Origin: an uncultured Desulfovibrio sp.
GTDB lineage: Bacteria; Desulfobacterota; Desulfovibrionia; Desulfovibrionales; Desulfovibrionaceae
DNA: 64,000 nucleotides
Direction: 5' to 3'
Assembly (NCBI GenBank): GCA_913063155.1
Contig: CAJXYU010000005.1
Coordinates: 186,001-250,000, forward strand
Under the pieces are notes generated by a model that had not been told where the DNA came from, ran no database searches, and worked only from the letters and a program-made list of their open reading frames with translations. This document shows positions 2 through 18,614 of the stretch, piece by piece. How positions within the stretch are numbered: position 1 is the stretch's first letter; every line of letters begins with the position of its first letter. The position numbers and the translations under genes were made by a program.

Positions 2-2491
2 ATGGTCAGGAAAAATCAATCGAACGAAGTTCCTTTGGAATTGCTCCGTTGGCGTCTAGATCCGAAGACGCTCTCCTTCAAGACGACGGACGACCTTGAG
101 CCTCTTGAGGAGATTCTTGGCCAGAAACGCGGCGTGGAAGCCTTCCGCTTCGGTATGGGAGTGGAAAAGAAAGGGTACAACATTTTTGTGACCGGTGAGC
201 CCGGCACCGGACGGATGGCCACTGTGAAGAGGTTGCTCAAGGAATTGAATGTGGATGGGGAAGTTCCCTGCGACCTGTGCTACGTCAACAATTTCAAGCA
301 CCCCGAAGAGCCCATTCTGCTTCGGTTCAAGGCCGGGGAGGGGAGCATATTCAAAAAGGACATGCATGCTTTTATCGAGAACATCAAGGCTGAAGTGCCC
401 CAGCTTTTTGAAAGTGAGGAGTATATCGCACGCAAGAACGAGATGGCCGAAGCTCACGAAAAAAAGGTCATCGCCTTTTACAAGGATATCGAGGACAAGG
501 TGAAGGACACCGGTCTGGTCATGGTCCGCATGCAGATGGGGCCCTACCAACGTCCGGACATCGTTCCTCTGGTTGACGGAGAGCCCAAACGGCTTATTCA
601 ACTGGAGGAAATGGTCGAGAACGGTCGTTTCCCCAAAGAAGAGTTCGAGAGACTTCGCGACAAACGCGCTGAACTCAAGGAGGAAGTGGATCACATAGTC
701 CAGGAAATCAAGCAATTGCATAAGGACGTGGCCAAGAAGCATGAAGAAGTGGACCGGCTCATGTTCCTGAACCTTGCGGAAGAGATCCTCAATCCCATGC
801 GGGAATCCTACCAGGAAAAGAAGACTCAGAAGTTCCTGGATTCCGTGCTTGAGAACATGGTGGATCAGTTGGAGGAGATCAAATCGTTTGGCCAGAAACA
901 GCAGGGGCCGATCCCCGGAATGGTTCTTCCCGGTGCTTCCCCCGAAGTGGTAATGCGTCCTTACGAGGTTAACCTGCTGGTGGATAATGCCGAACTGACC
1001 GGCCCACCGGTGATCATTGAAACGTATCCCACATACCGCAACCTGTTCGGAAGTATTGAGCGGACCATGGACCGCATGGGAGGCTGGCGTACCGACTTCA
1101 CCAAGATCAAGGCCGGATCGTTCGTCAAGGCCAACGGCGGCTATCTGGTCATCAATCTGTTGGATTCCATAATGGAGCCTGGGGTCTGGCCGACCCTTAA
1201 ACGTTCTCTCAAAACTGAACAGATAGAGATAGAGACCTATGACCCGTACTATTTCATTACGGCTACCGGACTGAAACCCGAACGCATCGACATGGACGTG
1301 AAGGTCGTGGTTCTCGGCGATGCTCGACTTTACAGTCTGCTTCGCTATTATGATCAGGATGTTCCCAAAATTTTCAAGGTCAGGGCGGATTACGAGTCCA
1401 CCATGAACCGTGATGATGAATCCGTGTTGCAGGTGGCCAGATTCGTGAAGAGCGAAGTGGACCGGCAACAGCTCAAACCCTTTGACGCCTCGGGTGTTGC
1501 TGTCGTTCTGGAGGAATCGGTGCGCATGTCAGGCCGTCAGGAAAAACTGTCCACGTCTTTTCCCTATCTGTCGGACCTGTTGAGCGAGGCCGACTACTTT
1601 TCCGGAATTACCGGAGAAGGGTACGTAGGCGCGGAGCATGTGATCAAGGCTCTCGAAGCCAAGAAATACCGTTCCAATCAGATTGAGGAGCGGCTTCAGG
1701 AAATGATTGATCGCGGCAGTTTGTTCGTGGATACGGACGGCGAGATGGTGGGCCAGATTAACGGACTGGCCGTTTACTCCATGGGAGACTTCATGTTCGG
1801 CAAGCCGTCCAGGATTACGGCGGAGACTTCCATGGGCAAGGAAGGCATCATCAACATCGAGCGGGAGGCCGAACTTTCCGGTCCAATTCACAATAAGGGT
1901 ATGCAGATCCTCGCCGGATATCTGCGAAGGATGTTCGCCCAGGACAAGCCTTTGACTCTGGCGGCCAGCATAGCGTTTGAGCAGGCCTATGGCGGGGTTG
2001 ACGGAGACTCCGCCTCGTCTACCGAACTTTATGCGTTGCTTTCGAGCCTTTCCGGAGTCCCCATCCGGCAGTACATTGCCGTGACCGGCTCCGTAAACCA
2101 GAAGGGCGAGGTCCAGCCCATCGGTGGTGTGAACCAGAAGGTGGAAGGGTTTTTCATGTGCTGCAAGCACGCGGGCCTGAACGGCAAGCAGGGGGTCATG
2201 ATTCCCTATCCGAACATAAAAGATCTTATGCTCGATCAGGAAGTGGTGGACGCGGTCAAGGAAGGTGAATTTCATGTTTGGGCCGTGAAGACCGTTGACG
2301 AAGGCATTGAGATTCTTACCGGCGAGAAGGCCGGGAGCAAAACAAAGAGTGGTGGCTATACCAAGGGGTCCGTCTATGATCTCGTGGACAAGAAGCTGCT
2401 CGGTCTGGCAGAAGGATTGCGGGACTTCGCAAAACCGGAAGAAAAAAAGAAGAAGACAACGAAGCGGCAGGCAAAGAAAAAGTCTGCATAA
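2..2491 (+). CDS. Lon-like ATP-binding serine protease (S16 family, LonC/YcbZ type)
   Basis: An 829-residue protein of the Lon-related AAA/S16 family, expected to be a cytoplasmic protease or protein-remodelling factor. A Walker-A-like loop, GEPGTGRM, lies at residues 65-72, with Arg71 where a Lys is usual. A long charged, coiled-coil-rich region follows at about 110-290. The C-terminal S16 domain carries Ser670 (in GDSAS) and Lys713 (in GGVNQK), 43 residues apart as in the Lon Ser-Lys dyad. The protein ends in a Lys-rich tail. It lacks the N-domain of classical Lon. The ATG is at the second base of the window, so an upstream start cannot be excluded, although the protein looks complete. It is followed by a hairpin terminator. 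Family call is firm; the substrate is unknown. Confidence 0.9.
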   Translation: MVRKNQSNEVPLELLRWRLDPKTLSFKTTDDLEPLEEILGQKRGVEAFRFGMGVEKKGYNIFVTGEPGTGRMATVKRLLKELNVDGEVPCDLCYVNNFKHPEEPILLRFKAGEGSIFKKDMHAFIENIKAEVPQLFESEEYIARKNEMAEAHEKKVIAFYKDIEDKVKDTGLVMVRMQMGPYQRPDIVPLVDGEPKRLIQLEEMVENGRFPKEEFERLRDKRAELKEEVDHIVQEIKQLHKDVAKKHEEVDRLMFLNLAEEILNPMRESYQEKKTQKFLDSVLENMVDQLEEIKSFGQKQQGPIPGMVLPGASPEVVMRPYEVNLLVDNAELTGPPVIIETYPTYRNLFGSIERTMDRMGGWRTDFTKIKAGSFVKANGGYLVINLLDSIMEPGVWPTLKRSLKTEQIEIETYDPYYFITATGLKPERIDMDVKVVVLGDARLYSLLRYYDQDVPKIFKVRADYESTMNRDDESVLQVARFVKSEVDRQQLKPFDASGVAVVLEESVRMSGRQEKLSTSFPYLSDLLSEADYFSGITGEGYVGAEHVIKALEAKKYRSNQIEERLQEMIDRGSLFVDTDGEMVGQINGLAVYSMGDFMFGKPSRITAETSMGKEGIINIEREAELSGPIHNKGMQILAGYLRRMFAQDKPLTLAASIAFEQAYGGVDGDSASSTELYALLSSLSGVPIRQYIAVTGSVNQKGEVQPIGGVNQKVEGFFMCCKHAGLNGKQGVMIPYPNIKDLMLDQEVVDAVKEGEFHVWAVKTVDEGIEILTGEKAGSKTKSGGYTKGSVYDLVDKKLLGLAEGLRDFAKPEEKKKKTTKRQAKKKSA

Positions 2492-9004: not shown

Positions 9005-10627
9005 CTAGAGGAACATGTAGACGGCCGCCAGCCCGGTCAGGGACATGGTGATGGTGTACGGAAGGGCCAGGAGAACCATACGGCCGTATGACAGACGGAT
9101 GACCGGTGCAAGAGCACTTGTCAGCAGGAAGAGGAAGGCCGCCTGGCCGTTGGGGGTCGCCACAGAAGGAATGTTGGTTCCGGTATTGATGGCGATGGCC
9201 AGTTTGTCCAAGTGCTCCATGGTTTCCTTGACCTGCGCCGCAACGCCCTGCGGGAGAGTGGCAAGTACATCCGCCCTCGCGATGTGAGCGTCCGTCAACC
9301 TGTCCATGAGCGCTTGTCCGCTCATGCCGATGCCGGGAATTGCGTCCAACACGTGAATGAAGTGCAGTTTGGTTTCGGAAATGTAGACCGTTGCGACAAA
9401 GACGTTATCCGAAATGGAGGAGAGAAGCCCGTTGGCGATGTAGTAGGCCATGAGTTGGCTTTGTCCTTTCAAACTCAAAACATATTCGATGATGGGAGCG
9501 AACAGCTCCTGTGAGTGGATGACCGCAACGATTGAGAAGAAAACCACCAGCAGAGCGGTAAACGGCAGTGCTTCCTCAAAAGCGTGGCCGAGTTGGTGTT
9601 CCTCGGTGACGCCGGTGAACGACGTGAGCAGAACGATGACCGAAAGGCCGATGAGACCGACCGCCGCAAGGTGGAATGCCAGGGCTACGATGAGCCAGAT
9701 GCCGGCGCATCCCTGGATGATGAGCTTGAGCTTACCCTGCTGTCCCTGTTTTTCTTCCATTTGTATCGCCTTTTCCAGCAGGAAAGAGCGGATATTGCCC
9801 GGGAGTTGCGCACCATAACCGAACAGATGGAACTGCTCCACCGCAAGGCAGGTCAGTAGGCCCACGACGAATACGGGCATGGTAACCGGCATGGCGTGCA
9901 GGAAGAATGGAATGAAGTGCCATCCCATTTCTCCGCCCACCAGCAGGTTCTGTGGTTCGCCCACGAGCGTGCAGACGCCGCCGAGTGCAGTGCCCACTGC
10001 GCCGTGCATCATGAGGTTGCGGAGAAATGCTCTGAATTCGAGCAGCTCTTCTCGATTCTTTTCCTTGATGCAGGCATCCGAACAAAGGTCGTGAGTGTCG
10101 CCGTATCCTGTGCCGGAAACGAAGCGGTGGTAGACGTTGTAGAATCCGTATGCCACGGCCATAATCACCGCCGTGACGGTGAGGGCGTCGAGAAAGGCGG
10201 ACAGGAATGCTCCGGCAATGCAGAAGAGCAGGGCGATGGTTTTTTTGGAGCGGATGCGCACGAGAATGCGGGTGAAGGTGAATTGCAGGAAGTCCTTCAT
10301 GAAGTAGATACCTGCCACCATGAAGATGAGCAGCAGGATGACTTCGAAGTTCTTGGACGCTTCGTGGAAAATAGTTTCCGGTGTGGTCATGCCCATAATG
10401 ACCGCCTCAAGCGCCAGGAGGCCGCCCGCCGGAAGCGGGTAGCATTTCAGGGCCATGGCCAGGGTGAAGATGAATTCGGCTATCAGCGCCCACCCCGCAA
10501 CAAAGGTGCCTGCGGTGAGCATGAGTATCGGGTTGAGGATGAGAAATCCTACAAGGGTCAGCTTGTACCATGACGGTGCATTGCCGAGGAATGTTTTCAA
10601 AAAGGTTCTTGTCAACGATGTCTTCAT
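9005..10627 (-). CDS. nhaB: Na+/H+ antiporter NhaB
   Basis: A 540-residue inner-membrane protein with about twelve membrane segments. Family-typical stretches include [34 protein letters not shown] and [13 protein letters not shown], which match NhaB sodium/proton antiporters. It exports Na+ in exchange for protons and so links sodium and pH homeostasis. The start at 10627 has AAGGAG upstream; the frame runs 13 codons further but without a comparable site. The gene follows an SLC13-type permease on the same strand, but a strong terminator separates them. A sodium-coupled physiology would suit a marine or brackish organism; that is inference. Confidence 0.92.
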
Positions 10628-10755
10628 TTTGGTCTCCTTGGATATCAAGCGCAAAATGCCCCTCATTCGGGAAAACGACGAAACGCCGGCCGATTGAGGG
10701 GGTGTTTATGAAAAATATGCGGATCAGTTCTGGTCGGGCAGTCCTCGTATCCATG

Positions 10756-10794: not shown

Positions 10795-12594
10795 TTAATA
10801 GAACATCATGAGCGCGGTTATCATGACGATCATGTAAATGACGGTCATGCCTGCGCCGCTGCGGACATAGTCAATGGTCCGGTACCCTCCGGGGCGCATG
10901 ATCAGGGCGTTGACCTGATGGGTGGGCAGGACGAACGTATTGGATGCTGCAACGGCTACCGTCAGCGCCGCCACACGTGGGTCCACTCCGGCATTGATGG
11001 CCATGTTCATGGACAGCGGCACCAGGAGAACCGTTGCCCCCACGTTGGAAGCGACCAGCGTGAAGAACGAAGTCAGAATGCCGATGACCGTGAGCAGCAG
11101 GACCGGGGACGGAGTCCCCAAGGCGGCCATGATGGTGTCCGCAATGTATTTCGCGGCCCCGGTATTTTCGAAGGCCATGCCCAGCGGGATCAGCCCGCCC
11201 AGCAGGAAGACCGTCATCCAGTCCACGGATTGGTAAGCCTCGTCAATGGTCAGGACCTTTGTGAGCACCATGCCGAGCGCACCTGTCAGCAAGGCAATGG
11301 AAAGCTGGACATGGAAGCCGAGAATCATGACCAGGGATATGGCCAGCCACAGCAGAGCCAGCTTTGCCTTTTCCGTTCTCAGCAGCTCGCCCTTTACAGC
11401 TTCGGTGAAGATCAGGTCCGGCAGGCCCTTGAGCATGTGGAACATCTCCCATCGACCATGCAGCAGCAGGGCGTCGCCGGCCTCAATGACGATGTCGGTC
11501 AGGCCGCTGACGAATATTTTCTCGCCCCTGAAGATGGCCAGAGGCGAAACCTGGAAGCGTTCCCTGATGCGAAGGTCGCGCAGTGTTTTACCGACGAATT
11601 CGGAGCGGGGGGTCACAATGCCTTCCATGATGCCCGCATTGTTCGGAGAGAGTTCTTCTGCGAAAGAGCTCAGTTCCGATTGAAGTTCCCAGCCCATATC
11701 TTCCGCCATATGCCCCACGAATTCATCGGGACCGACCACGACCAAGTGGTCTCCGGGTTGGACGGTTTCCTGCGGGTTTGGAGCAAAGATGTGGGTGCGT
11801 CCTCCTTCCCGGGCGATGGCAACCAGGGTGCAGAAGTAGATGGGACGCAGCTCCAACGCATGCAGGGGCTCTTTTCGATTCCAGTCTGCGGGGACGTGGA
11901 GTTCGAAGAGGGAGCCCACATTGCTGTAGGTGCTGGCCAGCACCGACGACATGGGGCCGGAGTTCTCATTCTCGGCCCTGTTCGGCAATATGAATCGACC
12001 GAACAGTATGAAATAGATGAGGGCGGCAGCAATGAGCAGCAGGCCCACCGGAGTGACGCTGAACAGGCCGAAGGCCTCGTAGCGCGTCCCTCCCACCACC
12101 ATGAGGTCGTTGAGCAGGATGAGAGGACTGGAGCCCACAAGAGTGAGGCAGCCGCCGATGATCGCGCAGAAGCCCATGGGCATGAGTAGTCTGCCCACGG
12201 GGACGCCTGTCTGGTTGCCGATTCGTTTTGCGGCTGGAAGAAAAAGCGCAGCCGCGCCGATATTTTGCATGAAGCCGGAAATGACCGCGACGGTCCCGGC
12301 AATGAGGGTCATGATCCGTGATTCGCTTTTTCCTGCGAAGCGGAGAATGATGCGTGCCATGGAGTTCATGACGCCGGTCTTATCCAAGCCGGCGCCAATG
12401 ATGATCACTGCGATGATGGATACGACGGCATTACTGCTCAACCCGCTGATGGCCTGCTGCGGGGTGACGAGCCCGAGGAGGGGGAGGAGCACCATCATGA
12501 TGATTCCCACCACATCGACCCGGACCCATTCGAAGATGAACAACAGCACGGCGAAAGCGAGCACGGCCATAACCGTTATGATTTCAGGGGTCAT
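10795..12594 (-). CDS. SLC13/DASS-type permease with central RCK-C (TrkA-C) domains
   Basis: A 599-residue transporter. Residues 1-190 and 400-599 are two hydrophobic halves, with family-type hairpin motifs (MQNIGAAALFLPAAKR, GSSPLILLNDL; in the second half TLVASNVGATVLLVPLS). The cytoplasmic middle (about 205-390) holds two TrkA-C-like modules, for example GKTLRDLRIRERFQVSPLAI. This arrangement is shared by SLC13/ArsB-like anion or dicarboxylate-sodium symporters. The ion cannot be read from sequence; sulfate, dicarboxylate or another anion is possible. It begins 44 bp after the universal stress protein gene on the same strand, suggesting co-transcription, and is followed by its own terminator. 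Confidence 0.85.
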   Translation of the reverse strand: MTPEIITVMAVLAFAVLLFIFEWVRVDVVGIIMMVLLPLLGLVTPQQAISGLSSNAVVSIIAVIIIGAGLDKTGVMNSMARIILRFAGKSESRIMTLIAGTVAVISGFMQNIGAAALFLPAAKRIGNQTGVPVGRLLMPMGFCAIIGGCLTLVGSSPLILLNDLMVVGGTRYEAFGLFSVTPVGLLLIAAALIYFILFGRFILPNRAENENSGPMSSVLASTYSNVGSLFELHVPADWNRKEPLHALELRPIYFCTLVAIAREGGRTHIFAPNPQETVQPGDHLVVVGPDEFVGHMAEDMGWELQSELSSFAEELSPNNAGIMEGIVTPRSEFVGKTLRDLRIRERFQVSPLAIFRGEKIFVSGLTDIVIEAGDALLLHGRWEMFHMLKGLPDLIFTEAVKGELLRTEKAKLALLWLAISLVMILGFHVQLSIALLTGALGMVLTKVLTIDEAYQSVDWMTVFLLGGLIPLGMAFENTGAAKYIADTIMAALGTPSPVLLLTVIGILTSFFTLVASNVGATVLLVPLSMNMAINAGVDPRVAALTVAVAASNTFVLPTHQVNALIMRPGGYRTIDYVRSGAGMTVIYMIVMITALMMFY

Positions 12595-12638: not shown

Positions 12639-13238
12639 CTACTTGGCGTGCAGCGTCGCTCGGGTGTAGACGGGAATGACCCTTCTGTTCTTGCAGGCTA
12701 CGGCGGAATCGTCCATGACGTAGCGGAACGAGTTCTCCTGGTACATCTTGTCGATGACGGAATCTTCTTCGCCGTGGCGCACTTCATGAGAAAAGAGCAA
12801 GCCGGCGTCGGCTGCCTTGTCGGAGAAACGGTCGATGTTTTCCTCTGCCTTGGCCCGGAATACCGGAAAGTCCCGTCCGGTGGTGTCGAGGTTGAGAGCC
12901 ACTAGGTCGCTACGTGTTTTTGCAGCCATGTCTACGGCATAATCCATGACGCCGTCGGAAAAAGCGTATCCCTTACAGACTACAAGGATTTTGCAGCGGG
13001 AACATTCGTTCCGCACAGCTTGGTTCTTTTCCGGAGTACAGGTACACTCGACACTCGCATCCTTTGCGCCGACGAGTCGTTTAATCATTGCCTTCATAGA
13101 ACATCCTCCTGATGTTTCCGTGAAATGCTGTTCGCGACCGATGACCCACGCACCTACATGGCAGGTGTTGCAGTTTGTCTCGGCCATTGTTTGATAATGC
13201 CTGTTCACCATATTTTTTACAGCGCTGAAGAGAGCCAT
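12639..13238 (-). CDS. Cys-rich universal-stress-protein-like protein with two possible starts
   Basis: The C-terminal part resembles universal stress proteins (ILVVCKGYAFSDGVMDYAVDMAAKTRSDLVALNLD). It lacks the clear Gly-rich ATP loop of many UspA proteins but ends in a USP-like strand. The frame has two well-supported starts: 13238 (site GAGGAG, six bases before ATG; 199 residues) and 13097 (site AGGAGG, seven bases before ATG; 152 residues). The extra 47 residues contain NCNTCH, and the segment after the second start contains CTC and CSRC, so metal or redox chemistry is possible. No signal peptide is seen. A GCCAAGT/ACTTGGC hairpin overlaps the stop. Probably co-transcribed with the permease downstream. 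Confidence 0.72.
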   Translation of the reverse strand: MALFSAVKNMVNRHYQTMAETNCNTCHVGAWVIGREQHFTETSGGCSMKAMIKRLVGAKDASVECTCTPEKNQAVRNECSRCKILVVCKGYAFSDGVMDYAVDMAAKTRSDLVALNLDTTGRDFPVFRAKAEENIDRFSDKAADAGLLFSHEVRHGEEDSVIDKMYQENSFRYVMDDSAVACKNRRVIPVYTRATLHAK

Positions 13239-13811
13239 GTTTCACTCCTCTTTAAGTAAAGGTTGGAGATATTTTTTCAGCCTCTCGCCCGCTTTAGGAT
13301 CAAAACGCATGCCAAGAGTTTTTCTCAGTTTATGTTTTTGAAAACATAGGATTTTATTTTTATTGTACGAGTTTTTTTCCCCTGTGGTGATGCATGTTGC
13401 AACGATTGAGGGTGGGGAAAATTCGGTATGGCGGCAAATAGGGATGAAGACGACTGTGGCGCTATTACAATATGCAACGGTGTCGACGGCGTTTGTTACA
13501 CTCTTTGATAGACAACAAGGGGGCTGATGGCCTTTTCTAAGCGTCATGGCGGTGAATTGTTCATTTTTTCTCAAAATATATTTATTGAAAATTCAATATG
13601 ATAGCTATTCAGTCGTGACGATGGATGATGCGTGCCTTGTCGCGGGTAAACGCTTTGGGAAGGAAAAAGGGTCGAGTGTTGCGATGTGCAATCTTAACAG
13701 CCCACAAGTGCCGTGATATGTAAGAATGATTAGCGAATGCTGTGCACGTGCTGACAGTTGAACTGAGTGGATTCCTTATACGAATGTGCCATTACGGCAG
13801 GAGGCGGGCAT
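13239..13811. other. Long AT-rich divergent intergenic region
   Basis: This 570-bp stretch separates the stress-protein gene from the receiver-Lon gene. It is AT-rich, especially 13310-13380 and 13560-13610. An inverted repeat ATTGAA-AA-TTCAAT lies near 13586-13599. A 110-codon minus-strand frame (13242-13574) is not supported by composition or a ribosome-binding site. I found no convincing sigma-70 or sigma-54 promoter pair by eye, but two divergent promoters must lie here. Confidence 0.4.
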
Positions 13812-15890
13812 ATGGGCTGGTTCGGAATTAAGTGGGGGACTTCTTCGAAAAAGGCGTCTTCGGAGGAAGGTCAGGCTCCGGTACGTTTGCCAAGGGAAAC
13901 TGCTTCACCGGCGGAACACGAACTTCTTCGTGACAAAATCCTGGCCTCCGGGTTGCCGGGCGAGGTTAATGATGCCGCCCTCACCGAATGTGACAGGATT
14001 GCAGGGACCGAACAGTCTTCCCCGGAACACGCCATCGGACTGAACTATCTGGAATTTCTTCTTTCCCTGCCCTGGAACACGACGACCAAGGATGACCTGG
14101 ATATTGTCCGGGCGGAGAATGTGCTTGATGCACGTCATCACGGTTTGCACCGGGTCAAGGACCGGATACTCGAATTCCTGGCGGTCAAGAATCTTCGGGG
14201 ACGGCATAGCCCCACCATACTCCTGGTGGATGATGAGGCTATTGCCCGAGAAAATTTATCCATTGTTTTTGAAAACGACGGATACGAGGTCACCGCTGTC
14301 GCCAACGGCCTTGAAGCTGTCGCGGCCATGGAAAGGCAGCCTGCTGACGTGGTGGTTTCCGATCTCAAGATGGACGGCATGGACGGCATGGAGCTTCTGA
14401 AGGTTCTGCGTAAACGCTGGCCGGACACCAAGGTCATCATGCTGACTGGGTATGCCACGGTCAAGACGGCCGTGGATGCCATGCGGCAAGGGGCCGATCA
14501 GTACCTGGGCAAACCCGTCAACCTGACCAAGCTGCGAAAATATGTCGAGGAAATGCTGGAGCAAAGTATGCGTGCCCAGCAGCTTCATGGTCCAGTGCTT
14601 TGTTTTACCGGCCCTCCAGGGACCGGCAAGACCTCCATTGGCAAGGCCATAGCGGAAGCGCTTGGGAGAAAGTTCTTCCGCCTGTCGTTGGCGGGTTTGC
14701 GGGACGAGGCCGAACTGAGGGGACACCGTCGGACCTATGTGGGGGCTTTGCCGGGACGGATACTGCAAGGACTTCAGAAAGTGGGGGCCAGGAACCCCGT
14801 CATCATGCTCGACGAAGTGGACAAAGCGGTGCAGGATTTTCATGGCGATGCCACCGCCGTGTTGCTCGAATTGCTTGACCCCGAGCAGAACGCGGCGTTC
14901 GTCGACCACTACATGGGCTTGCCTTTTGACCTGTCCGGGGCATTGTTTCTTTGTACCGCCAATGCGGTGGAACGCCTTCCGGCTCCTCTGCGCGATCGCT
15001 TGGAGGTAATCGAATTCTCCAGCTATACGCGGCAGGAAAAGTTTGAAATCGCGACACGCTATCTGATTCCGGACCAGTTGCAGCAACATGGGTTGGAAAA
15101 CCGTCCTGTCGTAATAGAGCCCGAGGCGGTTTTGGCCGTCATCATGGACTATACGCGGGAAGCAGGGTTACGAGGGCTACGCAAACAGTTGGCGTCGCTG
15201 TGCAGGAAACTGGCCCGACAGGTTCTTGCGGATTTGGAAGACAAGGTGGTGGTGGACGCCGCCATGGTTCCCAAACTGTTGGGTCCCCCGCCGTACGCGT
15301 CGACCATGGCTCAGTCGGAAACCAAGCTCGGGGTGGCCACCAGTCTGGTTTGGACCGAAAACGGCGGGGAGATCATTTTTGTGGAAACAGCCCGGATGCA
15401 GGGCAGCAAGCAGCTCATCCTGACCGGGTCGTTGGGAGAGGTGCTTCGCGAATCGGCCCAGACAGCTCTCAGTTTCATTAGAAGCCGTGCCGAGCAGTTC
15501 GGCATCGCGCCGGATTTCTTTGAGACTGCGGATATTCACGTACACATACCGGCCGGGGCCGTCTCAAAGGAGGGACCGTCCGCCGGAGTGTCCATCACCC
15601 TTGCGCTTCTTTCCCTGCTGACCGGCAAGCCTGTCCGCGGAGACGTCGCCTTGACCGGAGAGTTGTCTTTGCTGGGCGACATTCTGCCGGTGGGGGGGAT
15701 TCGCGAGAAGCTCATGGCGGCGCAGCAAGCCGGAATCACCACCGTGATTTTGCCCCGGGGATGCGCCTCGACTTTGGACTCCATGGACGAAGATGTTTTG
15801 CAGGATATAGAATTGTGCCTTGTCTCCTCAGTGGAGGAGGCTGCTGCCGTTGCTTTGGAGAGCGCAGTTATTCAAGGTGGTAGCGTTTGA
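13812..15890 (+). CDS. Lon-type protease with an inserted response-regulator receiver domain
   Basis: A 692-residue protein. Residues 1-132 are only the end of the Lon helical linker (LNYLEFLLSLPW; GLHRVKDRILEFLAVKN). A complete CheY-like receiver domain follows at about 133-255, with acidic pair Asp140/Asp141, phospho-acceptor Asp184 (VVSDLKMDG), Thr212 and Lys234. The AAA+ domain then resumes, with Walker A GPPGTGKT at 267-274 and Walker B VIMLDEVDK. The S16 protease domain has Ser590 (GPSAG) and Lys633. The Lon substrate-binding N-domain is missing. The ATG at 13812 has AGGAGG upstream. The 3' end overlaps the convergent regulator gene by 23 bp. Inferred to be an ATP-dependent protease gated by phosphorylation, perhaps by the kinase encoded next door. 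Confidence 0.93.
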   Translation: MGWFGIKWGTSSKKASSEEGQAPVRLPRETASPAEHELLRDKILASGLPGEVNDAALTECDRIAGTEQSSPEHAIGLNYLEFLLSLPWNTTTKDDLDIVRAENVLDARHHGLHRVKDRILEFLAVKNLRGRHSPTILLVDDEAIARENLSIVFENDGYEVTAVANGLEAVAAMERQPADVVVSDLKMDGMDGMELLKVLRKRWPDTKVIMLTGYATVKTAVDAMRQGADQYLGKPVNLTKLRKYVEEMLEQSMRAQQLHGPVLCFTGPPGTGKTSIGKAIAEALGRKFFRLSLAGLRDEAELRGHRRTYVGALPGRILQGLQKVGARNPVIMLDEVDKAVQDFHGDATAVLLELLDPEQNAAFVDHYMGLPFDLSGALFLCTANAVERLPAPLRDRLEVIEFSSYTRQEKFEIATRYLIPDQLQQHGLENRPVVIEPEAVLAVIMDYTREAGLRGLRKQLASLCRKLARQVLADLEDKVVVDAAMVPKLLGPPPYASTMAQSETKLGVATSLVWTENGGEIIFVETARMQGSKQLILTGSLGEVLRESAQTALSFIRSRAEQFGIAPDFFETADIHVHIPAGAVSKEGPSAGVSITLALLSLLTGKPVRGDVALTGELSLLGDILPVGGIREKLMAAQQAGITTVILPRGCASTLDSMDEDVLQDIELCLVSSVEEAAAVALESAVIQGGSV

Positions 15891-17199
15891 TTTTTCGCCA
15901 GAGCGAGACCCTGTCGATTCCGAGAATCCGAGCAGCCTGCGTCTTGTTTTCGCCTGAGGCAGCCAGCACTTTTCGGATGTGCGCTTTTTCCACGTCTTCC
16001 AAGGTGGCGAGCGGTGCATCGGTTTGGGCGTCGTAGACGTCGCTCGGCAGCAGGTCCGGCGTGAATGTTGCGCCTTGCCCCAGTGCCAGTGCCCGCTGAA
16101 CGATGTTTTCCAATTCTCGCACATTGCCCGGAAAAGGGTAGCGCATGAGGAGATCCAGTGTGTCCTGGGCGATGGATGCGATGGTTTGGCCAGGCTGCCG
16201 GTGCTTTTCCAGGAAATGGCCGATCAGGATGGGGACATCCTCCCTGTGTTCCCTGAGGGGGGGGGCTTGGAGGGTGACCACGTTGAGGCGGTAATAGAGG
16301 TCCTGACGGAATTCGCCTTTTTCAACCAGCTCCCGCAGGTCACGGTTGGTGGCGGCGACGACCCGTATGTCCACCGGTATTTCCCGTGTGCCCCCCACGC
16401 GCAGGAATGCTCTTTCCTGGAGCACCCGTAACAGTTTGACCTGCATGTTCAAGGGCAGTTCGCCTATCTCGTCGAAAAAGACGGTGCCTCCGTCCGCCAC
16501 CTCGAGGATTCCCTTTTGTCCGCGGTTGGCCCCTGTGAACGCCTCCTTCTCATGACCGAACAACTCCTTGTCCATGAGTTCGGCCGTGAAGGTGCCGCAG
16601 TTGATGGCCATGAAACGCTCCTCGGAGCGTTGGCTCAGCTGATGGATTCCTTGGGCCACGAGCTCCTTGCCCGTACCGGTTTCTCCTTGGATCAAGACAT
16701 TGCAGTTCATTTGGGCCAGTTGACGTACGGTTTTCTTGAGTTGGGCCAGGGTGTCGCTTTGACCGACAAAGGGAAAGTCGTTCTTGCCTTCCGCGACGAT
16801 CTGTCGGAGCCGGAGCACTTCCTGGGAAAGGGACTGTTGTTCAAGTGCCTTTTTCACCTGGAGGCGGAGTTCGTCGAAGTTGTAAGGCTTCTGTATATAG
16901 GAGTGGGCTCCTTTCTGCATGGCCTGTACCGCGTTGGGGACAGTTGCGTGGCCCGTCACCACGACAACTTCGGTGGAAGGATGTTGTGCCCGCGTCCGTT
17001 CCAGCATGGCGACGCCGTTGATGCCGGGCAGCATGAGGTCGGTGATCACGAGTTCATATTCTTTTTTTTCAAGTTCCTGCAGGCCTTCTTCGGCGGACAC
17101 CACGGCTGTCACGGAATAGCCCTCGTTGGTCAGGACATGGGCCAGATTGTCCCGCGCTATGTGTTCGTCTTCAACCACGAGTATTGAAGCGACGGTCAT
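15868..17199 (-). CDS. Sigma-54-dependent response regulator (NtrC family)
   Basis: A 443-residue regulator in the order receiver (about 1-120, phospho-acceptor Asp54 in VITDLMLPG), sigma-54 AAA+ domain (about 140-370, Walker A GETGTGKE) and C-terminal Fis-type helix-turn-helix (KTQAARILGIDRVSLWRKI). The sigma-54 contact loop reads EAFTGA rather than GAFTGA. It activates RpoN promoters when phosphorylated. Its ATG overlaps the stop region of the kinase gene by four bases, so the two are a translationally coupled pair. The receiver resembles that of the convergent receiver-Lon (IARDNLAHVL here, IARENLSIVF there). Targets unknown. Confidence 0.93.
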   Translation of the reverse strand: MTVASILVVEDEHIARDNLAHVLTNEGYSVTAVVSAEEGLQELEKKEYELVITDLMLPGINGVAMLERTRAQHPSTEVVVVTGHATVPNAVQAMQKGAHSYIQKPYNFDELRLQVKKALEQQSLSQEVLRLRQIVAEGKNDFPFVGQSDTLAQLKKTVRQLAQMNCNVLIQGETGTGKELVAQGIHQLSQRSEERFMAINCGTFTAELMDKELFGHEKEAFTGANRGQKGILEVADGGTVFFDEIGELPLNMQVKLLRVLQERAFLRVGGTREIPVDIRVVAATNRDLRELVEKGEFRQDLYYRLNVVTLQAPPLREHREDVPILIGHFLEKHRQPGQTIASIAQDTLDLLMRYPFPGNVRELENIVQRALALGQGATFTPDLLPSDVYDAQTDAPLATLEDVEKAHIRKVLAASGENKTQAARILGIDRVSLWRKIKRYHLE

Positions 17200-18614
17200 G
17201 CATTTTTCTCCTGTATGAGTGGGAGCCGGATGAAAAACGTGGTGCCTTTGCCCGGCGTGCTTTCGACCCGGATGGTTCCCAGGTGTTTTTCGATGATTCC
17301 GTAAACGATGTACAGCCCAAGTCCCGTGCCTTGTCCTACTTCTTTGGTGGAAAAGAACGGGTCGAATATGCGTTGAAGGGTTTCCGCAGGTATTCCGTCT
17401 CCGGAGTCCGTAACGGAAATGATCGCGTGATCATTCTCCTGGGTGGCTTGGATGTTGATGGCGCCTTCCTTTTCTCCGATGGCCTGGATGGCGTTGATGA
17501 TCAGGTTGATAAAGGCTTCCTGCAGACGTTGGCGGTCCACGGAGAGGACCAGAGTGTCCGGTACGTTCAGATCGAGGGAGATTCTCGGGCCCAATTGGCT
17601 GGACACAAGGCGTACGGCTCTTTCTATGACGGTCCGTAGTTCGTTCGGAGCAGGGGAGAAGTCTTGGTGGCGGGAGAATTCGAGCAGCCCCTTGACGATG
17701 TCTCGTGCTCGAATGGTTTCCTGAACGATGTTGTCTATCATTTTGTCAGAGAATTCTTCTCTGCCGGAGGCGGTTTCCTCGAGAATCTGGGCGGAGGTGG
17801 AGATATTGTTCAGAGGGTTGTTCAACTGATGGGCGATGCCGGAAGCCAGGGTCCCGATGGAGGAGAGCTTTTGCGCCTGCACGAGTTGGATCTGGCGTTT
17901 TTTCAGTTCTTCCACCATGGAGTTCAGGGCTACGAAGACCTGTTCGATTTCATCGCGTGCATTTCTGATGGCGATGGGGGCGAAGGTGCCCTGGGCTATT
18001 TGGCGTGTGGCTTCCTGGACCTGCCGCAACGGTCTGAGGATGCTTTTGGAGACGAAGATGACCAGGGCGAAAACGACCAGGGCTATGACTCCCATGGAAA
18101 TAAAAAGCGTCAGCCGTAGTCTTTGGTTGATATGCAGGATGCTTTCTCGTTCGAATTCCGCGATGGCGCGGGAATGTTCCACAAGGTTTTGTCCGTTTTC
18201 ACGCAGCATTTGCGAGGCCTGGTGGTCTTCCGCTATTTCACCATACTGGGAAACCTTCTTGATTTTTTCAAGAAGCGCACTGTAGCGCTCCATTCCTTGC
18301 TTCAGGTTTGTGCCGTGCTGTCTGCCGAGAGGTTGGCCCAGCTCGCTGGAAAGCGTATCAAGGGCTTTCTGGGCCTGGTTCAGATTTGACTTGCCTCGTG
18401 AAAAGAATGCGGTGTCCTGATACAGGAAAAAGTTCTTTTCTTCCCGGCGGAGTTCAAGAATCAGGTTTCGTAGATCATCCGCCCGCTCCACAAGCACCAC
18501 TTCCTGCTGCAAGCGGTTGATGTTCGAGAGGGCGAGGAGGGCGATTCCTCCGAAAGAAAGAGAGAATATGATTATTCCGAGGACAATGGTTTGCCGAAGA
18601 TTCGGTTTGATCAT
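17196..18614 (-). CDS. Membrane sensor histidine kinase
   Basis: A 472-residue kinase. A membrane helix (about 10-30) is followed by a mostly helical extracytoplasmic sensor (about 32-165), a second membrane helix (about 170-192), a HAMP domain, a HisKA domain with His262 in SGIAHQLNNPLNN, and an HATPase domain with NLIINAIQAI, DSGDGIP, FSTKEVGQGTGLGL and a final Gly-rich loop. The sensor looks like a four-helix bundle. The start at 18614 is preceded by AAGGATAT; the open frame continues 26 codons upstream without family features. It is the probable phosphodonor for the regulator encoded right after it and possibly for the nearby receiver-Lon. Confidence 0.92.
   Translation of the reverse strand: MIKPNLRQTIVLGIIIFSLSFGGIALLALSNINRLQQEVVLVERADDLRNLILELRREEKNFFLYQDTAFFSRGKSNLNQAQKALDTLSSELGQPLGRQHGTNLKQGMERYSALLEKIKKVSQYGEIAEDHQASQMLRENGQNLVEHSRAIAEFERESILHINQRLRLTLFISMGVIALVVFALVIFVSKSILRPLRQVQEATRQIAQGTFAPIAIRNARDEIEQVFVALNSMVEELKKRQIQLVQAQKLSSIGTLASGIAHQLNNPLNNISTSAQILEETASGREEFSDKMIDNIVQETIRARDIVKGLLEFSRHQDFSPAPNELRTVIERAVRLVSSQLGPRISLDLNVPDTLVLSVDRQRLQEAFINLIINAIQAIGEKEGAINIQATQENDHAIISVTDSGDGIPAETLQRIFDPFFSTKEVGQGTGLGLYIVYGIIEKHLGTIRVESTPGKGTTFFIRLPLIQEKNA

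Follow-up and report, generated by a model that had tools for sequence, protein, structure and literature searches.

The REC-Lon locus

The window, that is, the whole analysed stretch of 64,000 nucleotides from an uncultured Desulfovibrio sp., contains an intact gene at 13812-15890 of the forward strand encoding a Lon-type protein of 692 residues with a built-in receiver, here called REC-Lon. The surrounding genes are the following.

9005-10666 (-), NhaB-type antiporter, possibly in the same operon as the next two genes (Pfam; the neighbour is kept in close relatives)
10795-12594 (-), anion transporter, CitMHS/TrkA_C (Pfam)
12639-13238 (-), small Usp-like protein encoded by the first gene of the divergent operon (Usp-like family profile)
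13812-15890 (+), REC-Lon, 692 residues (Pfam, comparison of reading frames and starts)
15868-17199 (-), partner response regulator with a receiver, a sigma-54 activator AAA+ domain and a Fis-type helix-turn-helix domain (Pfam, receiver comparison)
17196-18614 (-), partner histidine kinase with two apparent membrane spans (by eye), HAMP, HisKA and HATPase domains (Pfam, co-occurrence)

The longest frame of REC-Lon starts at a GTG codon (13767-15890, +, 707 residues). This start is less likely than the in-frame ATG at 13812, as the latter is preceded by AGGAGG at 13799-13804 and yields the MGWF-like start common to the relatives. Pfam was run in the 707-residue numbering, from which 15 is subtracted to obtain the 692-residue numbering. 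It produced matches to Response_reg (151-260, E 4.2e-30), AAA (278-417), Lon_lid (440-490) and Lon_C, PF05362 (496-698, E 1.6e-70). In the 692-residue numbering, the parts of the gene are as follows.

13812-13835 (+), aromatic-basic N-terminal peptide MGWFGIKW, opening a disordered stretch of about 30 residues
13908-14201 (+), Lon linker helices, residues 33-130, the last being the long helix 113-130 (3m6a alignment, model)
14217-14546 (+), receiver domain, residues 136-245, acceptor Asp184 (Pfam, residue conservation)
14523-14585 (+), last helix of the receiver, residues 238-258, reaching to at most 3 residues before AAA+ strand 1 (model)
14598-15017 (+), AAA+ ATPase, residues 263-402, Walker A 267-274, Walker B Asp334/Glu335 (Pfam, relatives)
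15084-15236 (+), Lon lid domain, residues 425-475 (Pfam)
15252-15860 (+), Lon protease domain, residues 481-683, Ser590/Lys633 (Pfam, relatives)

REC-Lon has the Ser-Lys protease, the Lon-type AAA+ domain with Walker A and B and the lid before the protease that characterise LonA, and it matches TIGR00763 with 667.3 bits against a cut-off of 608.05. The receiver contains the complete set of response-regulator residues, namely the Asp pair, the acceptor Asp, the Thr/Ser and the Lys. The first-pass annotation, made from the sequence alone, had assigned Asp140, Asp141, Asp184, Thr212, Lys234, Walker A 267-274, Ser590 and Lys633, and all of them are found at these positions. It had also claimed that the classical N-domain is lost; indeed, the Pfam scan of REC-Lon yielded no match to PF02190. 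For this reason we keep REC-Lon out of LonA and, judging by its domain matches, class it as a Lon-core protein.

In the alignment with the B. subtilis Lon structure 3m6a, residues 34-128 correspond to template residues 8-102, and residues 256-681 to 104-529. Only one template residue lies between the two matches, and thus the receiver enters Lon at a single point, which this alignment places after the long linker helix and before AAA+ strand 1. Pfam and the alignment therefore agree with the earlier placement of the receiver at a site where ordinary Lon has no insert. Compared with LonA (B. subtilis 3m6a, E. coli 6u5z), REC-Lon has the same linker helices, AAA+ domain, lid and Ser-Lys protease, but no N-domain and no coiled-coil arm, and it carries the receiver before AAA+ strand 1. 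The sigma-54 activators of the NtrC/DctD type likewise have a receiver N-terminal to an AAA+ ring ATPase. However, they belong to another AAA+ family, their output is transcription and their receiver is at the N-terminus, whereas in REC-Lon the output is proteolysis and the receiver lies inside the chain.

A monomer model of REC-Lon, built on 32 sequences, 5 of them with the receiver, has a mean pLDDT of 81.7 and a pTM of 0.68. It contains, in this order, helix 113-130, the receiver from residue 135, the last receiver helix 238-258 and AAA+ strand 1 (262-266); the linkers at the two joints of the receiver are about 4 and 3 residues long. The best 50 matches listed by Foldseek are all Lon chains, with a target-normalised TM of up to 0.88, and thus the Lon core looks intact. 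Residues 1-30 have pLDDT below 50.

The genome of the window has two further Lon genes, whose frames of 841 and 858 residues are of ordinary length. Another Lon-like protease of a different type, with a LonB-like AAA domain, a LonC helical domain and a partial Lon_C match, is encoded in the window at 2-2491 (+), 11 kb away from REC-Lon.

Distribution, conservation and origin

Full-length fusions score at least 357 bits with a 14-row profile (A2) of the linker, the receiver and Walker A, which separates them from plain regulators (at most 170.6) and plain Lons (at most 118.5), the latter two having been scored in seven genomes. REC-Lon was found in 63 of the 149 genomes of its own family, as one long match in 58 (E about 1e-242 or better) and as a split match in 5, and in 51 of the 395 genomes of a phylum sample (48 nearly full-length, 3 partial), of which 46 lie outside the family. 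The arrangement of a receiver between the Lon linker and AAA+, for which a genome search had been proposed, is thus recurrent. The split match in one genus, at first sight an odd variant, is explained by a low-complexity linker of greater length between the lid and protease domains; in L174, L176 and L213-L216, all of one genus, the linker joining these two domains is of low complexity and variable length.

No REC-Lon was observed in 201 genomes of Chloroflexota, a weak negative since this set has no positive genome at all. No plasmid record covers 80% of a query spanning the fusion; a longer plasmid search retrieved mostly plain Lons, with 9 long matches. In viral contigs, 13 weak loci matched.

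Residues and neighbourhoods were compared in 65 loci: the window, four relatives and 60 fetched loci. The fetched loci were hand-chosen for spread, 24 coming from the other 62 family genomes and 36 from the 46 phylum genomes. Some loci are near-duplicates, e.g. L211 and L212, plus six of one genus. Asp140, Asp184, Lys234 and Pro235 are unchanged in all 65 members, the window included. Asp141 is replaced by Glu in two members and Thr212 by Ser in two, each being kept in the other 63. The Walker A lysine is present in 65 of 65, and both Ser590 and Lys633 in all 64 readable members, a contig end truncating the other locus, so the earlier statement that the ATPase and protease residues are kept holds for the relatives as well as for the window. 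GASAG or GSSAG variants of the protease site occur in 5 of 34 loci and are intact on reading. The insert (125-255) has exactly 131 residues in 61 of the 65 members. Homologues with decayed receivers, named in the first-pass annotation as evidence that would count against it, were looked for, and every one of the 65 members has Asp184. A decayed receiver or a dead protease is thus ruled out by residue conservation in the relatives, and a chance fusion, frameshift or assembly artefact by the intact gene and the recurrent architecture.

In a tree built without the receiver columns, a single branch (SH-aLRT 96) separates 64 REC-Lons from 63 plain Lons. The tree was made by a quick method with no bootstrap, two long REC-Lon rows were flagged, and some plain rows lack the C-terminal end. 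If the tree is rooted among the plain Lons, this branch argues for a single fusion event; repeated independent fusions are not favoured, as all 64 REC-Lons are on one side of it. The family is probably old and of single origin, judging by these sequences. Among six near plain Lons that were read, none lacks both the receiver and the N-domain. In 26 hand-picked genomes with REC-Lon, all 64 matches to PF02190 are on other genes, and 25 of the genomes have one to four of them. REC-Lon is an extra Lon, beside N-domain Lons in the same genomes.

The N-terminal peptide is also shared. A pattern of Met, Phe or Trp within 3 residues and Lys or Arg soon after, written after the sequences had been seen, matches 63 of the 65 members, compared with a mean of 6.5 and a maximum of 13 in shuffled N-termini. 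In one of the two exceptions, the motif seems to lie behind a start codon other than ATG. In the members the peptide is followed by a variable stretch, which is disordered in the model. The peptide may be a tag for docking, contact the membrane or act as a tethered pseudosubstrate.

Partner kinase and regulator

The gene of the NtrC-type regulator is convergent with REC-Lon and overlaps its 3' end by 23 bases. Among the 105 other receiver matches of the genome, the receiver of this regulator is the nearest to that of REC-Lon (97.5 bits; the next has 86). Hence the gene does face, on the opposite strand, a kinase and regulator pair with a similar receiver, as had been noticed from the sequence. 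Within the fetched stretches, some of which end early, both the kinase and the sigma-54 regulator were found at 44 of the 65 loci, so that the trio with REC-Lon is complete there as it is in the window; the regulator alone was found at 1 locus, the kinase alone at 3 and neither at 17.

A close orthologue of the kinase (at least 324 bits; the next match has 270), counted irrespective of position, is present in 57 of the 149 family genomes. Of these, 56 contain REC-Lon, and the exception is an assembly that is 89% complete. The seven family genomes having REC-Lon but no close kinase orthologue are all from a single genus. Flanks were fetched for five of them, and there a more divergent kinase is next to REC-Lon. 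In the sample of 395 phylum genomes, the best 30 kinase scorers (at least 340 bits) all contain REC-Lon, 25 of them being outside the family. The 31st (337 bits) lacks REC-Lon, and among 19 further listed genomes below the best 30 it is present in only 9. No kinase was detected at E 1e-84 in 12 of the 51 REC-Lon genomes of this sample. Both bit cut-offs (324 and 340) were set after the scores had been seen, and the hypergeometric values for co-occurrence, 6e-32 and 1e-31, ignore kinship and should not be taken at face value. In the genus of the window, 4 of 10 genomes have both genes and 6 have neither. The co-occurrence includes unlinked cases, for example genome G121, where the kinase and REC-Lon are about 2 Mb apart.

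The first helix of a receiver is the main element recognised by the kinase. In this helix, REC-Lon and the partner regulator have an identity of 0.56, whereas the 28 next-best receivers of the genome have a mean of 0.22 and a maximum of 0.39. In the rest of the receiver, the identity with the partner regulator is 0.40, compared with a mean of 0.40 and a maximum of 0.49 for the same 28 receivers. Thus the partner regulator is close to the REC-Lon receiver because of the first helix and not because of the remainder of the domain. Across 45 locus pairs, however, the first helix matches the own partner (0.548) little better than the partners from other loci (0.507), and the co-variation is weak (partial r 0.14; 95 of 2000 permutations were as high), so by this comparison much of the likeness is a family-wide signature.

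Conservation of the neighbouring kinase had been proposed as a check, and the link is supported by both the co-occurrence across genomes and the likeness of the recognition helix. The kinase is probably cognate to REC-Lon. On the other hand, some members may use another kinase, since 17 of the 65 neighbourhoods contain neither kinase nor regulator.

Candidate regulatory sites and the divergent operon

The region between REC-Lon and the divergent operon contains several candidate regulatory sequences.

13299-13314 (-), sigma-54 promoter-like sequence TGGCATGCGTTTTGAT, directed towards the Usp-like/transporter operon (promoter scans)
13389-13403 (no strand assigned), candidate regulator site 1, GATGCATGTTGCAAC, palindrome GTTGC-N5-GCAAC with 1 mismatch (motif and conservation)
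13464-13478 (no strand assigned), candidate regulator site 2, 2 mismatches (motif)
13678-13692 (no strand assigned), candidate regulator site 3, GTTGCGATGTGCAAT, 1 mismatch, abutting the promoter-like sequence of REC-Lon (motif)
13694-13722 (+), sigma-70-like promoter of REC-Lon, TTAACA-N17-TATGTA (conserved block, by eye)

The palindrome was found by aligning five intergenic regions and then counted in all 65 loci, so the five discovery loci are not independent in the counts. Exact copies number 35 in 34,967 bases upstream of REC-Lon and 4 in 777,336 bases elsewhere in these loci. One or more upstream copies with no more than one mismatch occur in 47 loci, and 30 loci have a pair of copies 60-110 bases apart. 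In the window taken alone, the motif with two mismatches is no commoner than expected by chance (40 observed, 34 expected); its weight comes from position and conservation. In five whole genomes, exact copies at most 100 bases apart were found before REC-Lon in G121 and G507 and nowhere else; upstream of REC-Lon, G355 has a single exact copy, and G069 and G088 have none. Because of its position, the palindrome is assigned to the partner regulator as its putative, and probable, site.

A strict scan for sigma-54 promoters in 540 bases found candidates directed away from REC-Lon in 8 of 65 loci and towards it in 2 (shuffled mean 1.1, maximum 5). A relaxed scan of up to 840 bases, devised after the result of the strict one, found 45 of 64 away and 4 towards (shuffled mean 2.0, maximum 6). 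Of the 38 loci that have a promoter as well as a palindrome, 30 have the two 74-80 bases apart. The sequence TGGCAYGNNNTTTGAT within the promoter-like element of the window is single-copy in the genome. No sigma-54 promoter was found for REC-Lon itself, the counts towards the gene being near the shuffled means in both scans; the standard pattern has no match in the REC-Lon upstream region of the window. The sigma-70-like block, with its spacing of 17, is conserved in the window and four relatives.

Divergent genes were counted with profiles seeded from the 65 loci. Usp-like genes were found at 50 loci, TauE/SafE-type transporters at 34 and CitMHS-type transporters at 16; a Usp-like gene and a transporter occur together at 49. 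None of these genes is present at 14 loci, one of which has only 300 bases upstream. One of six scanned relatives of the Usp-like protein passes the Pfam Usp cut-off and five fall below it; the copy in the window, a seed of the Usp-like profile, has no Pfam match.

Published systems of this kind

The first-pass annotation had considered phosphorylation control of a Lon to be undescribed. This does not stand, as a 2011 paper already calls D. vulgaris DVU3303 a response regulator "containing a lon protease" and notes that it may need phosphorylation (Rajeev 2011, PMC3333781). The paper also names the regulator in Thermodesulfovibrio, Thioalkalivibrio and Dechloromonas, mostly with the Lon-type one. 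As in the window, the D. vulgaris genes DVU3303-DVU3304-DVU3305 are described there as a Lon-protease response regulator, a neighbouring kinase and a sigma-54 response regulator, the likeness of REC-Lon to DVU3303 being one of published description. The regulator is described as controlling a neighbouring operon of UspA-type and membrane proteins, comparable with the Usp-like and transporter genes of the window. In D. vulgaris the trio is regarded as a single operon, whereas REC-Lon of the window is on the strand opposite to the kinase-regulator pair.

In a second paper, the three genes have co-fitness above 0.9, and in chlorate all of them are detrimental, with the same sign, while the transporter DVU3299 is important (Trotter 2023, PMC10102598). 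The same sign and the co-fitness suggest that the protease acts with the regulator and not against it. However, the co-fitness could be a polar effect, given the treatment of the genes as one operon. A 2015 paper lists sigma-54 targets and gives DVU3305 the motif GAFSGA (PMC4641369). This motif occurs in 9 of 45 partner regulators; that of the window has EAFTGA. No biochemical follow-up of the 2011 suggestion was found in openly licensed papers.

REC-Lon is therefore of an already known kind, and the window provides a further member. New here are the breadth of distribution, the probable single origin, the exact insertion point, the co-occurrence with the kinase, the cis-logic and the N-terminal peptide.

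Proposed mechanism and alternatives

Two-component control of proteolysis is known from systems with separate adaptor receivers: in RssB-ClpXP and CpdR-ClpXP the signal reaches the protease through such an adaptor. There the receiver is a protein of its own, whereas in REC-Lon it is a part of the protease. We consider it rather likely that REC-Lon is a response regulator with an ATP-dependent protease as its output, and that one kinase drives both the regulator and the protease. Of this scheme, the sequences show the architecture, the conservation, the co-occurrence and the cis-sites.

The membrane sensor kinase (17196-18614) would probably phosphorylate two receivers, that of the sigma-54 regulator and, at Asp184, that of REC-Lon. 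The phosphorylated regulator (15868-17199) would turn on the divergent stress operon encoding the Usp-like protein and the anion transporter. In REC-Lon, phosphorylation would move the last face of the receiver and, through it, the nucleotide-binding core, altering ring assembly, ATPase activity or pore opening; the tight joints at both ends of the receiver, beside the ATPase core, suggest such an allosteric control of the ring. Since the N-domain and the coiled-coil arm are gone, substrate choice would probably fall to the receiver surface, the pore or the aromatic-basic peptide conserved at the N-terminus. It is phosphotransfer, the change of activity with its sign, and the substrates that we infer here.

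Nothing in the sequence fixes the sign, and in AAA+ proteins of the NtrC type receivers can inhibit as well as activate, so phosphorylation might turn the protease off, proteolysis being released when the signal ends. We regard this as rather unlikely, because the published mutants in protease, kinase and regulator share the sign and pattern of their phenotypes, which is easier to understand if one signal activates all three, although polarity is possible. By analogy with these same-sign phenotypes of D. vulgaris, and with polarity as the caveat, phosphorylation most likely activates REC-Lon.

The adjacency of the genes in many loci, the matching recognition helix and the tendency of kinase and REC-Lon to occur or be missing together would also be expected of a feedback device, in which REC-Lon degrades the partner regulator or kinase, or drains phosphate from the kinase, and has no targets of its own. 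A protease exerting negative feedback should, however, oppose the phenotype of the regulator, and the published phenotypes have the same sign; a phosphate sink would require no protease, yet Ser590 and Lys633 are kept in every readable member. Such a device is therefore unlikely. The near-constant insert length and the short linkers might, in turn, point to a structural or docking insert that replaces the N-domain and works independently of phosphorylation, but a pure scaffold would not need the catalytic receiver positions that are kept in the 65 members, and we consider this very improbable.

Thus a protease output switched by the shared kinase is the preferred reading. The complete scheme, in which phosphorylation of Asp184 switches the Lon core directly, the receiver has taken over from the N-domain as gate, the N-terminal peptide is a tethered pseudosubstrate or docking tag, one kinase steers transcription and proteolysis in parallel, and the signalling unit is old and probably of single origin, has in our estimate an even chance of being correct in all its parts. 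If the protease itself is a response regulator, phosphorylation-gated AAA+ proteolysis becomes directly testable with two purified proteins. REC-Lon would then be a natural on/off Lon, useful for studies of mechanism and for tool building, and would help to find which sensor and which regulon belong to a stress system that occurs in many genomes of the phylum.

Individual loci

In the near-identical loci L211 and L212, a different, only distantly related kinase lies beside REC-Lon, and a kinase more like that of the window (309 and 317 bits) is encoded on another contig of these genomes. In L010 (5863-12164), REC-Lon is followed by the regulator, a stand-alone receiver and the kinase; the stand-alone receiver might add another branch to the relay. 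The divergent proteins of L163, L168, L010 and L199, although of different kinds, seem by eye to share an A-F-A-E-A-G-E-like N-terminal stretch, which might serve as a shared tag, possibly one that the protease recognises. Finally, the divergent neighbour of REC-Lon in L193 (6788-8677) is DnaK-like by eye, possibly another link to protein quality control.
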